Shown piece after piece: positions 775 to 7,006 of a stretch of DNA of 54,410 nt. The stretch covers positions 9,637 through 64,046 of the forward strand of contig LVBW01000055.1 in assembly GCA_001604585.1 (NCBI GenBank), read 5' to 3'. A program made the translations under genes and the position numbers. The stretch is from Puniceicoccales bacterium Verruco_02 (GTDB taxonomy: Bacteria > Verrucomicrobiota > Verrucomicrobiia > Opitutales > Oceanipulchritudinaceae). Each line of letters starts with the position of its first letter. Positions within the stretch are counted from its first letter, which is position 1. The notes under the pieces are model-generated. The model did not search any database. It saw nothing but the letters and a program-made list of their open reading frames with translations, and was not told the origin of the DNA.

Positions 775-2025
775 CTAGCCCAGAATCTTTTGGACAGGGT
801 AGATGTCCAGCCTTGCGGCGAGAGGTACGCCGTTTTCGGTGGGCATCTCTGCCTCGCCCAATATCAGGGGTAGGGCGTACTTGTTGAACTGGAAGCTCAG
901 CGAGGTGCGGTCCTCATTTATCCATGCCACGGGCAGGGTCTTGGGACGGGCCACCGCTTCGGAGAGATCGCAGAGCGATGTCTCGCAGCTGTAAGAGTCG
1001 GTGTCGCCGCGCACGAGCATCAGCATCTTGCCGTTTGCACCGTTTTCGGCAATGGCCTCGACGGCGTCCTGACCGGCCCTGAAGGCTTCCTTTACGTCCG
1101 TTGCGCTTGCAAAGTGGCAGGCGCAGCGTTGGGCCATGTTCAGGCGGCAGGATGTGGCGCGCACTCCCTGAAGGTGCTGGCTGGCAAGATCGCGCAGATA
1201 GTCGGCCGAGCCGCCACGGGGCGAACCGTTGACAATCTCCGCCTCGCTGCCAAAGGAAATGTAGTTGCCGTTCTCGTCGAAGAGGCCTTGACTGACCACG
1301 ACCACGCAGTGATTGTGGTGCTTGAGAACGTTGCTCACATCGTCCAGATAGCTGTTTGGGTCGAAGGGGCACTCGGGCAGATACACTAGGTGGGGGGCGT
1401 CCTCGGGGTGATCCTTGCGCTTGGCAAGGGCAGAGCCTGCGGCAAGCCAGCCGCTCTGGCGGCCCATCACCTCGATGACGGTAACAAGGTCGTGGTTGCC
1501 TTCGCCAGCCGCGTCCAGAGCAATCTCGCGAACGGTGCTTGCGATGTACTTGACGGCGCTGCCGTAGCCGGGCGTGTGGTCTGTCATGCCGATGCTGTTG
1601 CCAGCACATACGGGCATACCGATGATGTTCATCTCCCAGCCTGCGCTCTTTGCAGCCTCTGTTATGGAGGCAGCCGTGGCCATTTCGTTAGCCCCGCCGA
1701 TTACCACTAGGAAGCGCACATCGTGCGCCTTGCATACGGAGATTACCCTCTCGTACTCGGGGCTGAGGTGCAGCTGGTACAGGGAGGTGCCCAAGGCCGC
1801 TCCGGGGGTGTGCCGCAGGGCGCGGATCGTCTGCTGGCTTTCTGCGGCAAGGTCTGTGAATTCCTCGCGCAGCAATCCATCGACGCCACCGAGGACACCG
1901 TAGATCTCCTCGATACATCCGTGGTTGAGGGCCTGTGTGATGACTCCGGCCAGAACGGCGTTGGACACCGCTGCCGCCGGACCTGATTGCACCACTAGAA
2001 AGTTTCCTTGAAGTTCTTCTGCCAT
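775..2025 (-). CDS. Phosphofructokinase-family protein lacking catalytic motifs (probable pseudoenzyme)
   Basis: Full-length (416 residues) homologue of the PPi/ATP phosphofructokinase group that carries TDHTPGYGSAxKYIA, here at residues 148-162. MGRQSGW (187-193) and the C-terminal half are recognisable. The catalytic positions are not. The phosphate/Mg loop, normally GGNDS or GGDGS, reads GGANE (110-114). The PKTIDND loop that carries the base and metal aspartates reads PVCAGNS (138-144), so both Asp are replaced, by Gly and Ser. The usual PGxxQR fructose-phosphate segment reads LNMAQR. The frame is intact and codon use is ordinary, so this is not a decaying pseudogene. A regulatory or sugar-phosphate-binding role is possible, but nothing here proves it. 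Start: ATG at 2025, preferred over an upstream TTG at 2058. A terminator follows the gene. Confidence 0.85.
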   Translation of the reverse strand: MAEELQGNFLVVQSGPAAAVSNAVLAGVITQALNHGCIEEIYGVLGGVDGLLREEFTDLAAESQQTIRALRHTPGAALGTSLYQLHLSPEYERVISVCKAHDVRFLVVIGGANEMATAASITEAAKSAGWEMNIIGMPVCAGNSIGMTDHTPGYGSAVKYIASTVREIALDAAGEGNHDLVTVIEVMGRQSGWLAAGSALAKRKDHPEDAPHLVYLPECPFDPNSYLDDVSNVLKHHNHCVVVVSQGLFDENGNYISFGSEAEIVNGSPRGGSADYLRDLASQHLQGVRATSCRLNMAQRCACHFASATDVKEAFRAGQDAVEAIAENGANGKMLMLVRGDTDSYSCETSLCDLSEAVARPKTLPVAWINEDRTSLSFQFNKYALPLILGEAEMPTENGVPLAARLDIYPVQKILG

Positions 2026-2183: not shown

Positions 2184-2675
2184 TCACATCCCGCCTTCTT
2201 CCGCGCCTCCGGCATGGTGTTCGTTATGCAGGGCAATGCGTACTATCCATCCCTCCCTGCTCCTTGCCCAGCTTTGCAGGCCCTTGACCGGTTCGGCAAT
2301 AGGCCTTGTCTGCACAGTCCCGATGGCAGTTATGAGAAGGCCTAGGTCTTGCCTGCCGTCGTTGTCCAGATCCAGCAGCAGCTCGCCTTCCGGGGCCTTG
2401 GTGCCGATTATATCCACTTGCACAAAGCCCTCGTCGCGCTCGAAGAGCAAGCCGTCGAAGACGGGGCGGTGTATCCTCAAAAGCAGGCCGCCGGCCTCGT
2501 ATTCCCTTGTAACCTCTCCGCCAGAGTACAGCGGATGTATCTTCATGAAGGGAAGGCGCGCCGCGCTCCCGGAGAGTTGCCCAAGAAGGAAGAACAGGGC
2601 CGGGCAGGCCAGACAGGCGGCAAGCGCAAAGACATGGCCCGCGAGGGCGCCGCAGTGGGTGATTAGCTTTTTCAT
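2184..2675 (-). CDS. Hypothetical membrane-anchored protein of a redox cluster
   Basis: I do not recognise this 163-residue protein. It starts with MKKL and has one hydrophobic segment at about residues 9-33 that contains two cysteines (AACLAC). It is probably a signal anchor or an uncleaved signal, so most of the chain would lie outside the membrane. Residues 35-150 look beta-rich. They contain LDLDNDGRQD near residue 101, which resembles a calcium-binding Asp loop. The gene follows the NapH-like gene with a four-base gap, so it is probably the last gene of an operon SafE-like - NapH-like - this gene. It may be an extracytoplasmic partner of the iron-sulfur protein. Confidence 0.6.
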   Translation of the reverse strand: MKKLITHCGALAGHVFALAACLACPALFFLLGQLSGSAARLPFMKIHPLYSGGEVTREYEAGGLLLRIHRPVFDGLLFERDEGFVQVDIIGTKAPEGELLLDLDNDGRQDLGLLITAIGTVQTRPIAEPVKGLQSWARSREGWIVRIALHNEHHAGGAEEGGM

Positions 2676-2679
2676 AAAT

Positions 2680-3867
2680 TTAGAGGCTGATATGTGTCAG
2701 CGCGCCAAGAACCAGTAGTATGAACTGTTGCAGGGTGCCGCCGGAAAACACCGCCAGAAAGGTGAACCCGGCGTAAAGGAAGAGAATGCGCGACAGTCCG
2801 GGGCTTCGCCCGATGCCGCTCATGCGCACGTTGTATGAAATGCTCCCGCTCGGGCAGGCGTCCACACACTTGCCGCAGAGGCTGCACCCTATGCCTGTCC
2901 TGCCGCTTGTTAGCGAGTCTGCGTCCAGAGCGCCCATCGGGCAGGTGCGGGTGCATTTGCCGCATTTTAGGCAGGTTTCGGTGTCGATGCGTACTTGGTA
3001 CGGGCTTAGTACCTTGCCAGTGGCGCTGCACAGGGCGCCCATCGGGCAGAACCATGCGCATTGTGTGCGCTTCTTGCTAAGAAGCGGCAGCACGATGACA
3101 AGGGCTAGGAAAAGGCTGACAAATACCAGTGCCTTGAGTGCGGAGCGCGTGCTTTCCACCGCCTCGTATTCGGTGACGACCTTGAAGGGGCAGACCCAGT
3201 CGCAGTACGTTGGCAAGAGCAGGGCTGCCGAGCTTGTCGCCACAAGCAGGAGCACGGCAAAGCCTCCCCAGCGCAGGATTGGGGGTGGGTTTTTCCAGAA
3301 GGGGCGCTTGCGGATACGGGAAAAGGCATCGTCCCAGCCGCCGTAAAAGCAACCCCAGGAACAGAAGCCGCGGCCCAGTATGACAAGGGCTCCGGCAACG
3401 ATGACGAGCATGGATGAAATGTCCGCATAGCCGCCTTCTATCCTGCCGGGGAAAATGATGGATTCTGTCAGTATGGCCGGAATGATGATCATCGTCGTGA
3501 CTATGTGGCAGAACGGCACTTCGCATTGCAGAATGTCTGCGTTGTCGAACGCCATGCTGCCCCTGACCTCGATCATGCGCGTAATGAAGCTGACCGACAG
3601 GGCCACGGCGAAGGCTATGAAGAGAACGGCGCGGTAGCGGTCCGTCTTGCCGCTGCGCATCATTTTGAAGAACAGGACAATATCCAGTAGCCATACGCAG
3701 AGAAAGGCGAAGCGCCTGTCCGGCTGGACAAACGCCGCCGGGCCGCCGGATAACAGCAGTGCCAGAATCAGCGCCATTGGCAAAGTCAGCGCGAGAGATG
3801 CCAGCCAGCTCTTGGGCTGGAGTTTGTGACGGGTGGGTTTGCAGGGCATGTTCATAGTGCTTTCCAT
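2680..3867 (-). CDS. NapH/MauN-type membrane ferredoxin, 4Fe-4S
   Basis: Polytopic membrane iron-sulfur protein of 395 residues. Several membrane segments come first (residues about 21-40, 48-62, 72-92, 112-135, 150-168). Next come the cysteine motifs GFCSWGCFYGG, YCDWVCPFK and CAWFCPMGAL, which are typical of the NapH/CcoG/RdxA membrane family. Two classical 4Fe-4S ferredoxin clusters follow: CLKCGKCTRTCP and CSLCGKCVDACP. A final hydrophobic helix lies near the C-terminus. Such proteins pass electrons across or into the membrane, for example from quinol to periplasmic partners. No nitrate reductase or methylamine dehydrogenase genes are nearby, so the partner is unknown. The start (ATG 3867) overlaps the end of the SafE-like gene by 16 bases, which suggests translational coupling. 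Confidence 0.82.
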   Translation of the reverse strand: MESTMNMPCKPTRHKLQPKSWLASLALTLPMALILALLLSGGPAAFVQPDRRFAFLCVWLLDIVLFFKMMRSGKTDRYRAVLFIAFAVALSVSFITRMIEVRGSMAFDNADILQCEVPFCHIVTTMIIIPAILTESIIFPGRIEGGYADISSMLVIVAGALVILGRGFCSWGCFYGGWDDAFSRIRKRPFWKNPPPILRWGGFAVLLLVATSSAALLLPTYCDWVCPFKVVTEYEAVESTRSALKALVFVSLFLALVIVLPLLSKKRTQCAWFCPMGALCSATGKVLSPYQVRIDTETCLKCGKCTRTCPMGALDADSLTSGRTGIGCSLCGKCVDACPSGSISYNVRMSGIGRSPGLSRILFLYAGFTFLAVFSGGTLQQFILLVLGALTHISL

Positions 3868-4493
3868 ACAAGGTTCGCCCCCTGGGCCAGGTACACGAGT
3901 GCCGCTAGGGCGCAGAAAAGTTTGCCAACATCACGCGCAGCCTCGGAGCGGGCCGCCACGCCGAGCGCGAAAAGGGGCAGCAGCGCCACGTTTGTGCCAA
4001 GGAAAAAGCCCGTGACTGCAAGTGCTGCACCGGTGGGACTGTCTCCGCGCATGGATTCTACGGCGAAGGCGAACATGGGGGCGCAAAGCCCGCTCGCGCT
4101 CATCATCCCGGCGCGCAGGGCATAGCTGCGCGCTCCAAGGCGGAAGCGGCCAAAGGTCTTGCCTCCCTGCCCCTGCATGGAGCAGCCCTCATTGCACCCA
4201 TCTCTGCCAAGGCCCGCGCAGTAGCTGACAAGCATCAGGCCGAGAAGCAGATATACAAAGCCCCCAAAGAGCGGCGATTCCAGCATCCGCCCAAGTCCAC
4301 AGGCCCGGCCCACTGTGTGCAGCGTCAGCGCGATGAGTAGATATGTGCAAAGGCGCGCGCCCATGAATAGCAGGGCCAGCCGCCAGCGCCTTCTTTGTGC
4401 GCACAGCAATATGGGCAGCAGCGCCGGGCCGCAGTGCGCAAGGCAGCCTCCGCCAGCTCCGAGTCCTGCAAGGAATGTGTCTGCGAGAATCAC
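3852..4493 (-). CDS. SafE/UreH-like (DsbD-type) multi-pass membrane protein
   Basis: Six-helix membrane protein of 213 residues in the sulfite exporter TauE/SafE, UreH and DsbD transmembrane superfamily. The two repeated halves begin with AHCGPALLP (residues about 19-27) and SGLCAPMF (about 134-141), each with the Cys-Pro element typical of these families. A cysteine-rich cytoplasmic loop (about residues 98-105, DGCNEGCS) lies between the halves. Relatives export copper, nickel or sulfur compounds or carry thiol reducing power. Overlap with the NapH-like gene suggests redox coupling, but the substrate cannot be read from sequence. The start is GTG at 4493; the in-frame codon just upstream is a stop, so no longer product is possible. 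Confidence 0.72.
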   Translation of the reverse strand: MILADTFLAGLGAGGGCLAHCGPALLPILLCAQRRRWRLALLFMGARLCTYLLIALTLHTVGRACGLGRMLESPLFGGFVYLLLGLMLVSYCAGLGRDGCNEGCSMQGQGGKTFGRFRLGARSYALRAGMMSASGLCAPMFAFAVESMRGDSPTGAALAVTGFFLGTNVALLPLFALGVAARSEAARDVGKLFCALAALVYLAQGANLVWKAL

Positions 4494-4640
4494 AGATTAC
4501 ATTTTGCGCCCCCTTGCGCCGCATTCACAGCCTGCCGGTACAGGCCGCAAGGCAATGTTGCAGGATGCACGCCGGGGCTTCAGGCGGCGCCTGCCGAGGG
4601 ACAGATTGCAAGGCGTCCGGGACGGGCTGCAAAAGGGAGC

Positions 4641-5519
4641 CTACTTTCGGAACCCTGCCACGAAGGAGCGCGATACCGGCACAGTAAGGCAGGCCCGGTC
4701 CAGATGCAGGGTAAGCCCCTGCGCGTTGCCCTCGGCCCGCAGCACGCGGGCAGGGTTGACAAGGTATGAGCGGTGGCAGCGGGCCAGTTTCAGGCCCTGT
4801 GCTGCTAGGCTGCTTTCGACCTCCTTCAGGGGCAGGCGCAAGAGGCTCGTCAGCGGCCTTCCTCCCTCGGCGCACTGGACAAGTTCCACATAGTTGCCCT
4901 CGGCCTTTACGTAACAGAGCCGCTCGGGGCTTACGCCTAGGCTTTCGCTTCCGCTTTCAAGGACAAGTTCCGCAGCGGCTGGGCAGGGGCATTTCAGAGG
5001 CTCTCTTTCGGCCTGTTTGTCCATGACCATGTTCAAGTCCTTGGCCATACTGCGGTTGGCCCTTCCCTCACGCAGCAGTTCGACGCCAAGCATCAGGGCG
5101 CAGGGGAACACGCCCACAAGGAGCGTGTACGCCTGCATTTGCAGGAAATCATCGAAGCTGAGGTGCCAGTGGTTGAGCAGTGCTGTGTAAAGGCTGTTCA
5201 ATAGGCCCACCAGCATGAGCATCGGCAGCATCAGCAGCAGCTCTTGCCAGAGTTTCCACTTTCCGGCCATGTGGCAGTGCCTTACCAGCCATGTCCTGAC
5301 AAGCCCCAGCAACAGGGCCGGCAACATGCAGGGCAGGCCGTAAGCGGCTATCTTGAGAAGGCGGAACGGGCCCGAGAGACTACCCACCCCGAAGGGTTGG
5401 TAGACCAGCATGAACATGGCGACAATCAGGCCCACCTTGGCCGCGCTGCGGATGCTGTTGGCCACGCCGCCCTCGTGCGGGAACTGCGTCCCAAGTATGC
5501 CGCCAAGTGACTTGTTCAT
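4641..5519 (-). CDS. Membrane-anchored LytTR transcriptional regulator
   Basis: 292 residues. The N-terminal half has four hydrophobic segments (about residues 27-45, 55-75, 92-112, 125-147). The C-terminal third is a LytTR DNA-binding domain, with LCYVKAEGNYVEL near 205, LPLKEVESSL, and the hallmark RCHRSYLVNPARV near 250. There is no receiver or histidine kinase domain and no kinase gene beside it. It therefore resembles one-component regulators that sense at the membrane and bind DNA directly, as in the LytTR systems whose membrane parts inhibit them. The redox cluster lies 147 bases downstream on the same strand, so co-regulation is possible but not shown. The target is unknown. Confidence 0.85.
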   Translation of the reverse strand: MNKSLGGILGTQFPHEGGVANSIRSAAKVGLIVAMFMLVYQPFGVGSLSGPFRLLKIAAYGLPCMLPALLLGLVRTWLVRHCHMAGKWKLWQELLLMLPMLMLVGLLNSLYTALLNHWHLSFDDFLQMQAYTLLVGVFPCALMLGVELLREGRANRSMAKDLNMVMDKQAEREPLKCPCPAAAELVLESGSESLGVSPERLCYVKAEGNYVELVQCAEGGRPLTSLLRLPLKEVESSLAAQGLKLARCHRSYLVNPARVLRAEGNAQGLTLHLDRACLTVPVSRSFVAGFRK

Positions 5520-5581: not shown

Positions 5582-7006
5582 TTACAGTATGGCCTCGGGG
5601 CGGTAGTCGAGCGATTCGGGGTGACGCTCGCCTATTTTGCGCGCCTCGCTCACAAACTGGTCCACCTGTTCCGGGGCCATGCCCACGAGGCGGCGGTTGC
5701 GGAATATCAGCTCGTCGATCTTTTCGCGCGGCAGCTTCAGGCGGGGGTCTGCGGCAAGGCGGGCAGGCAGGTCGTTCTCCTTTATCGCGCCAGAGCGAAG
5801 GCCCTCGGCAGCGGCCACGGAGTGTTCCTTTATAGCCTCGTGCGCGTCCTCGCGCCCGGCTCCGGCCTTGGTTGCCTCCATAAGGATGGTGGTCGTGGCA
5901 ATGAAGGGCAGGTAGCGGCGCGTTTCCTGCTCGATCATTGGCAGGTAGAACTGCATCTGGTCGAGCACGGTGATGAAGGTGTCCAAGAGGCCATCTATGG
6001 CGAAGAAGGTGTCTGGCAGCATCACGCGGCGCACGACAGAGCAGGACACATCGCCCTCGTTCCACTGGGTGCCAGCGAGTCCTGCGGCCATGGCCAAGTA
6101 GCCGTTGAGTATGATGCGCAGGCCGCAGATGCGCTCGCAACTGCGGGCGTTCATCTTGTGAGGCATTGCGCTGCTGCCCACCTGTCCCTTGGCAAAGCCT
6201 TCGCTGGCCAGCTCCTGTCCGGCCATGAGGCGGAGCGTGGTGGCAAAGCTGGCCGGTGCGGAGGATAGCTGCACCATTGCCTCGACCACTTCCATATCCA
6301 GGCTGCGGGGGTAAACCTGCCCAGTTTCCTTGAAGCTGTTCCAGATGTTGAGGTAGCTCAGCACCTTGCGTTCGAGGGCAATCACCTTCTCCTCGTCTCC
6401 GTCAAAGAGAGTGTACTGGTCAACGCGGGTGCCCACGGGGCCTTTGAGGCCGCGGGCGGGGTACTTGGCCATTATGGCCTCCACCTTCTCCATGTTGAAG
6501 CAGAGTTCCTCGCCAAACATCGCAAGACGGCGGCCAAGGGTGGTCGGCTGTGCGGCGACGTTGTGCGTGCGGGCCACCAGGAGCACGTCGCGATACTTGC
6601 GCGCAAGACTAGCAAGGCGCAGGACTGCCGCCCCGGCCTTGCGCACGATAAGATCCATCGAGCGGTACACCTGAAGCTGCTCCACGTTCTCTGTGAGGTC
6701 GCGGCTTGTCATGCCTCGGTGTATCTGCTGCTCTCCGGCAAGGGCGCAGAACTCGTCAATGCGCGCCTTCACGTCGTGGTGGCTCTCTTCCTCGCGGCGG
6801 CGTATGGAGGCTAGGTCCACCTGCTCGCGCACGGCCTCGTAGGCGGCGATGACCTTGTCTGATATGCCAAGGCCAAGGTCGCGCTGTCCCTTCATCACGG
6901 CTATCCAGAGGTCTCTTTCGATTATGATGCGGCCCTTGGCGGACCATATGTTTCTCATCTGGGCCGAGGCGTAGCGACTGGCCAATACGTTGGCGATTTC
7001 TTCCAT
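5582..7006 (-). CDS. purB: Adenylosuccinate lyase
   Basis: Cleaves adenylosuccinate to AMP and SAICAR to AICAR, releasing fumarate, in purine synthesis. The protein is a 474-residue member of the fumarase/aspartase superfamily. The catalytic loop signature GSSAMPHKMN lies near residue 283. Other conserved stretches are HRGMTSRDLTEN (near 96) and RTHNVAAQPTTLGRR (near 146). The length fits the eukaryote-like PurB form (about 430-480) and includes the C-terminal ADSL_C region. The ATG at 7006 has no strong ribosome-binding site. The gene is preceded by a 350-base non-coding stretch and is probably transcribed alone; the LytTR gene starts 62 bases downstream. Confidence 0.95.
   Translation of the reverse strand: MEEIANVLASRYASAQMRNIWSAKGRIIIERDLWIAVMKGQRDLGLGISDKVIAAYEAVREQVDLASIRRREEESHHDVKARIDEFCALAGEQQIHRGMTSRDLTENVEQLQVYRSMDLIVRKAGAAVLRLASLARKYRDVLLVARTHNVAAQPTTLGRRLAMFGEELCFNMEKVEAIMAKYPARGLKGPVGTRVDQYTLFDGDEEKVIALERKVLSYLNIWNSFKETGQVYPRSLDMEVVEAMVQLSSAPASFATTLRLMAGQELASEGFAKGQVGSSAMPHKMNARSCERICGLRIILNGYLAMAAGLAGTQWNEGDVSCSVVRRVMLPDTFFAIDGLLDTFITVLDQMQFYLPMIEQETRRYLPFIATTTILMEATKAGAGREDAHEAIKEHSVAAAEGLRSGAIKENDLPARLAADPRLKLPREKIDELIFRNRRLVGMAPEQVDQFVSEARKIGERHPESLDYRPEAIL

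Follow-up and report, generated by a model that had tools for sequence, protein, structure and literature searches.

A phosphofructokinase orthologue of Opitutales that lost its active site in place and may be kept for a non-catalytic role

The PPi-phosphofructokinases of the PRK14072/NF010675 family include 3hno from Nitrosospira and 3k2q from Marinobacter, the nearest solved relatives of the protein considered here, which is encoded by Puniceicoccales bacterium Verruco_02. The protein resembles these enzymes in descent, length, fold and profile score, and the active orthologues of its order share a conserved location next to purB; it differs from them in lacking the phosphate loop, Arg72, the metal loop, the catalytic base, the PPi lysine, Glu222 and Arg243 (E. 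coli PfkA numbering here and below for these residues). In plants, the alpha subunit of PFP is thought to regulate the catalytic beta subunit, which makes it an example of a phosphofructokinase (PFK)-family protein with a described regulatory role next to a catalytic relative. The alpha subunit, however, is a paralogue whose beta partner is active, whereas in Verruco_02 the orthologue itself has died and has no partner of the same subfamily, and some Opitutales genomes with a dead copy have no PFK at all. The Bacillus subtilis PfkA has been placed in a degradosome-like network (PMC8152036, PMC5030255), and thus binds other proteins in addition to being an enzyme. It offers a precedent for a non-catalytic role in a bacterial PFK, although it is catalytic and belongs to another subfamily, and no evidence ties the Verruco_02 protein to RNA decay. 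No description of bacterial PFK pseudoenzymes was found in the literature searched, which is not proof of novelty.

The window, i.e., the whole stretch of DNA that was analyzed, comprises 54,410 nt, and its main features are collected in Table 1. The pseudo-PFK gene runs on the minus strand from an ATG at 2025 to a stop codon ending at 775, with 416 codons free of interruption, as the open reading frame and its translation show and as a preceding sequence-only reading had noted.

Table 1. Positions in the window of the pseudo-PFK gene, its replaced and retained motifs, and purB
Feature	Position	Strand	Basis or remark
Pseudo-PPi-phosphofructokinase gene (PRK14072/NF010675 family)	775..2025	-	416 aa, active site lost
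GPAAAVSN, residues 15-22, in place of the glycine-rich phosphate loop GGPTAVIN	1960..1983	-	alignment
Order-specific block ALNHGCIEEIYG ... DLAAESQQTIRAL, residues 29-70, kept in dead lineages	1816..1941	-	candidate functional face
Leu82 in place of the catalytic arginine (E. coli Arg72)	1780..1782	-	alignment
GGANE, residues 110-114, in place of the GGNDS metal/phosphate loop	1684..1698	-	alignment
PVCAGNS, residues 138-144, in place of PKT(I/V)DND	1594..1614	-	alignment
TDHTPGYGS, residues 148-156, retained structural motif	1558..1584	-	alignment
MGR, residues 187-189, kept here, lost in most other degenerate lineages	1459..1467	-	alignment
Gln246 in place of the F6P ligand Glu (E. coli Glu222)	1288..1290	-	alignment
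Thr291 in place of the F6P ligand Arg (E. coli Arg243)	1153..1155	-	alignment
purB-like adenylosuccinate lyase	5582..7006	-	upstream of PFK on the same strand, about four genes between (2184-5519)

In an alignment with 73 relatives the replacements are ungapped, and the catalytic loops expected of a PRK14072-type enzyme (GGPT, GGNDS, and PKTxDND) are absent. The sequence-only reading had named two replaced loops, GGANE and PVCAGNS; both are borne out, and a third loop, in which SGGPTAVIN has become SGPAAAVSN, as well as further residues have been lost with them. That reading also had the base and metal aspartates gone. This is right for the catalytic base Asp127, removed by the PVCAGNS replacement together with the PPi lysine and Asp129, but needs correction for the metal/PPi-loop position, which is N-D in the PRK14072 subfamily and retains its D in a sister species (GGSDE). 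The set of residues binding fructose-6-phosphate (F6P) is incomplete, the equivalents of Glu222, Arg243, and His249 (the latter now Met) being changed and those of Met169, Arg171, and Arg252 kept, whereas an equivalent of Arg162 is absent from the whole subfamily. The roles of the E. coli PfkA residues at the aligned positions are presumed from general knowledge of PfkA structures. Changes are concentrated in the active site: in the three species of the genus, 10 of the 14 conserved columns of the active site have changed, as against 18 of the 105 conserved columns elsewhere (Fisher p = 6e-5). The protein is therefore predicted to be without catalysis, weak residual or other-substrate activity being possible.

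TDHTPGYGS and MGR are retained in the alignment, as previously noted, as are Gln299-Arg300 (numbering of the Verruco_02 protein), and the genus also keeps the equivalent of Gly170 (E. coli numbering). The NCBIfam NF010675 profile matches with 386 bits against a cut-off of 273, and the cut-off of Pfam PFK (PF00365) is also exceeded. The AlphaFold model (pLDDT 90.8, pTM 0.90) superimposes on the solved PPi-PFK 3hno with a Z of 54.9 and an rmsd of 1.6 over 390 residues at 34% identity, which shows, at the level of the predicted structure, that the PFK fold is retained over the whole length. By profile, fold, tree, and locus, the Verruco_02 protein is a PRK14072-type PPi-phosphofructokinase by descent.

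All other sampled members of the Verruco_02 GTDB family that carry the gene have normal loops. When the other long-branch dead sequences are left out of the tree, the genus groups with these active orthologues of its own family (97/95), and in a tree including the dead sequences of family f21 it can be held there (lnL +16.8, p-AU 0.91). Two other placements, beside the other long-branch dead sequences when all degenerate rows are included, and joined to the f21 dead rows (91/99, unstarred) when only these are added, were rejected as long-branch attraction, since the taxonomic position is restored once the dead rows are omitted or the genus is constrained to its family. In many families of Opitutales purB lies directly upstream of the PFK gene in the same direction, and dead copies of f21 (L044, L220) and f10 (L222) are also downstream of purB. 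The family grouping and the ancestral purB synteny thus indicate that the ancestral gene itself lost its active site; on these sequence comparisons, the Verruco_02 gene is a vertical orthologue and not a duplicate. The insertion that separates it from purB includes genes for a NapH/NosR-like polyferredoxin and a LytTR-like protein and is present in Verruco_02 and G002, the gene pair being conserved otherwise.

The loss of the active site is common to two further species of the genus, Puniceicoccales bacterium Verruco_01 (G001, 80% identity) and Opitutales bacterium Zod_Metabat.372 (G002, 86% identity). Orthologues with normal loops, which the sequence-only reading had regarded as a sign of local mutation, do occur in sister genera, but a local mutation is excluded: the loss is fixed in three species and is therefore a lineage trait.

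The same course was observed elsewhere in the order. A PFK match at E <= 1e-30 was found in 341 of 373 sampled genomes, most of them metagenome assemblies, and among the sequences read, 25 are strongly degenerate, having lost 7-12 of 12 core residues. They fall into 10 lineages (the Verruco_02 genus, f21 g29, f10, f25, two in f27, f13, f26, f6, and f7), and a fragment from f16 looks degenerate as well. Active members of f21 surround the dead f21 group in the tree (starred branch), and therefore at least two losses were independent; long branches limit the count of loss events for the remaining families, so that at least two is the overall figure. These two losses also differ in what remains: in f21, Arg72, the lysine, and for the most part Asp129 and Glu222 are still present and Met169 and Arg171 are lost, whereas the Verruco_02 genus shows the opposite. 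Strong degeneration was found in none of the 34 sampled members of the phylum outside the order (14 of f29 and 20 others), which keep the core loops, one of them (L260) deviating at two positions outside these loops. Repeated active-site loss thus looks specific to Opitutales within Verrucomicrobiota.

The reading that we prefer, with a probability of about 0.6, is that the protein is a pseudoenzyme and that it is retained because of a role in binding or scaffolding which it had before catalysis was lost. Selection for a non-catalytic function, as proposed in the sequence-only reading, remains the best account of an intact gene that forms a conserved clade, evolves under purifying selection, and is accompanied by canonical PFKs in the same genome. 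The two roles suggested there, regulation of a true PFK as a heteromer and sugar-phosphate sensing, fare worse as general mechanisms.

The strongest of the alternatives, although unlikely, is a regulatory subunit, i.e., a dead protein that assembles with the canonical PFK of the same cell into a putative heteromer and modulates it. The predicted fold is intact, and the genus members encode two or three canonical PFKs beside the clade-conserved replacements, an arrangement that the sequence-only reading had anticipated. In the Verruco_02 genome there are two further PFKs with normal loops, PRK06830- and PRK06555-like, and the other PFKs in genomes with dead copies likewise have canonical loops. 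These PFKs, however, belong to different subfamilies, those of Verruco_02 sharing only 24-27% identity with the pseudo-PFK over part of its length, and no active partner of the same subfamily is found in that genome, whereas the partners in plant PFP are paralogues of one family. Moreover, six reduced genomes (G044, G057, G058, G087, G099, and G116; 0.8-1.0 Mb, 90-95% complete) contain a degenerate copy only and no other PF00365 gene, and it is unlikely that a second PFK was missed through incompleteness in all six. Heteromeric regulation of a true PFK is therefore unlikely to be the general role. Glycolysis in these six genomes may skip the phosphofructokinase reaction, even where an enzyme for it is assigned by automatic annotation.

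A sensor of sugar phosphates or nucleotides, whose old active site would bind F6P or fructose-1,6-bisphosphate without turnover, is quite improbable. The genus does keep the equivalents of Met169, Gly170, Arg171, and Arg252 as well as TDHTPGYG, but the F6P-site columns Thr125, Asp127, Glu222, and Arg243 are among those lost, as is the phosphate loop, and Met169 and Arg171 have gone too in most other dead lineages. The former active-site columns drift in every dead lineage: across six dead lineages, variation at former catalytic columns was seen in 51 of 84 cases, compared with 0 of 28 in two active control sets, a contrast that rests on the zero variability of the active sets, the Fisher test being not significant in any single lineage. 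The old site is thus under no constraint to stay as it is, an argument against both a conserved sensor of F6P and a site rebuilt for another reaction. The latter explanation, a new enzyme, seems just as poorly favored: the loops are partly conserved within each lineage and a change from GG to GD recurs in several of them, but the replacements differ among lineages without a common new motif, and the former catalytic columns vary no less than the remaining protein. A heteromer or sensor role could still apply within the Verruco_02 genus alone, which keeps MGR and Arg252.

A decaying gene, a pseudogene, or an assembly error is very improbable. Relaxed selection would strike the active site first, and the most divergent copies are found in reduced genomes; the frames, however, are intact in nearly all copies, including the 416 codons of Verruco_02, the gene is retained in most of the reduced genomes sampled, and the loss is common to three separately assembled species. 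Nor is selection relaxed. Pairwise Nei-Gojobori dN/dS of the pseudo-PFK is 0.10-0.17 within the genus, compared with 0.07-0.21 for dnaN and 0.13-0.24 for pssA, purB of the same stretch being similar, and reaches 0.06-0.30 in four other degenerate lineages (only pairs with unsaturated dS), i.e., is well below 1 in five lineages. Both the loss of the active site and purifying selection on the gene are strongly supported at the sequence level. A still active PFK with an unusual site is the least credible explanation, since ten or more of the conserved positions for substrate, metal, and catalysis have been lost together, even though the NCBIfam and Pfam cut-offs are passed.

Among the subfamily-conserved columns, 52 are kept in the dead lineages (in at least 80% of them) and 36 are lost, including the active site. 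Active Opitutales copies conserve 46 columns at which the outgroups differ; 17 of them are kept in dead lineages, and these cluster at residues 29-68 (scan permutation p = 0.0012; an interval of 31-68 was picked after inspection, and the test was then repeated as a scan over positions). The kept block consists of an ALNHxCIEEIYG strand and a DLAxESQQxIRxL loop-helix. All lineages compared, whether active or dead, have Gln64, and none of the outgroup sequences does. In the alignment it adjoins the E. coli PfkA effector residues Arg21/Arg25/Arg54/Tyr55/Asp59. The assignment of a binding or contact function to this block is the weakest step of the argument, and retention of the block may reflect a need for folding or self-assembly rather than contact with a partner. 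Neighboring genes shared among the degenerate lineages amount to one chance pair, with no common partner.

According to the pseudoenzyme reading, the single PRK14072-type orthologue of this Opitutales genus lost its phosphate-loop, metal, base, and F6P residues in place, the gene and the fold were kept by purifying selection, and other lineages of the order followed the same course separately. Before catalysis was lost, the protein would already have had a second, non-catalytic binding or scaffolding role in this order. Helix 1, strand 2, and the loop-helix of residues 58-70 would provide the face for this role, where bacterial PfkA has its effector/subunit-contact region. Flux would have been taken over by another PFK (PRK06555-type, PRK06830-type, or PfkA), or the step dropped in reduced genomes; the active site would then have decayed, with the protein retained by its second role. 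The extension to the whole order, by which the Opitutales PPi-phosphofructokinase would have a conserved second function on an order-specific N-terminal face, kept after catalysis was lost in several lineages, even in genomes of 0.8-1 Mb without another phosphofructokinase, is put forward tentatively, at somewhat below even odds.

Repeated loss of the site with retention of the gene amounts to a natural experiment that separates a catalytic from a non-catalytic role of phosphofructokinase and indicates which surface may serve the non-catalytic one. Annotation faces a trap as well, because dead copies score as PPi-PFK: the NCBIfam cut-off is passed by the Verruco_02 protein and by several other dead copies, and published pathway reconstructions of reduced Opitutales use such annotations. 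For example, reversible glycolysis in the family UBA9783 was inferred from an annotated PPi-PFK (PMC12306168), a copy that may be dead.

Milder deviations were observed in other families. The metal loop is partly changed (GD..S, GAGEC, GGSEA) in f14 g54 (L094, L130, L168, L172, L174, and L177), which also has Asp127 changed to Glu, and in f24 (L108, L198). Such changes are possibly early stages of loss; those of f14 g54 show no enrichment at the active site (p 0.62) and were not counted as losses. In four copies of f28 (L119, L184, L185, and L186) GGNDS is replaced by GGNGS with the rest of the site intact, and the glycine, which takes the place of the PPi-determining aspartate, may reflect a switch of the phosphate donor towards ATP. 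In the window itself, the PFK gene is followed by an Ogt-like DNA methyltransferase gene (68-730), which shows 38-43% identity within the genus and is far more divergent than its neighbors.
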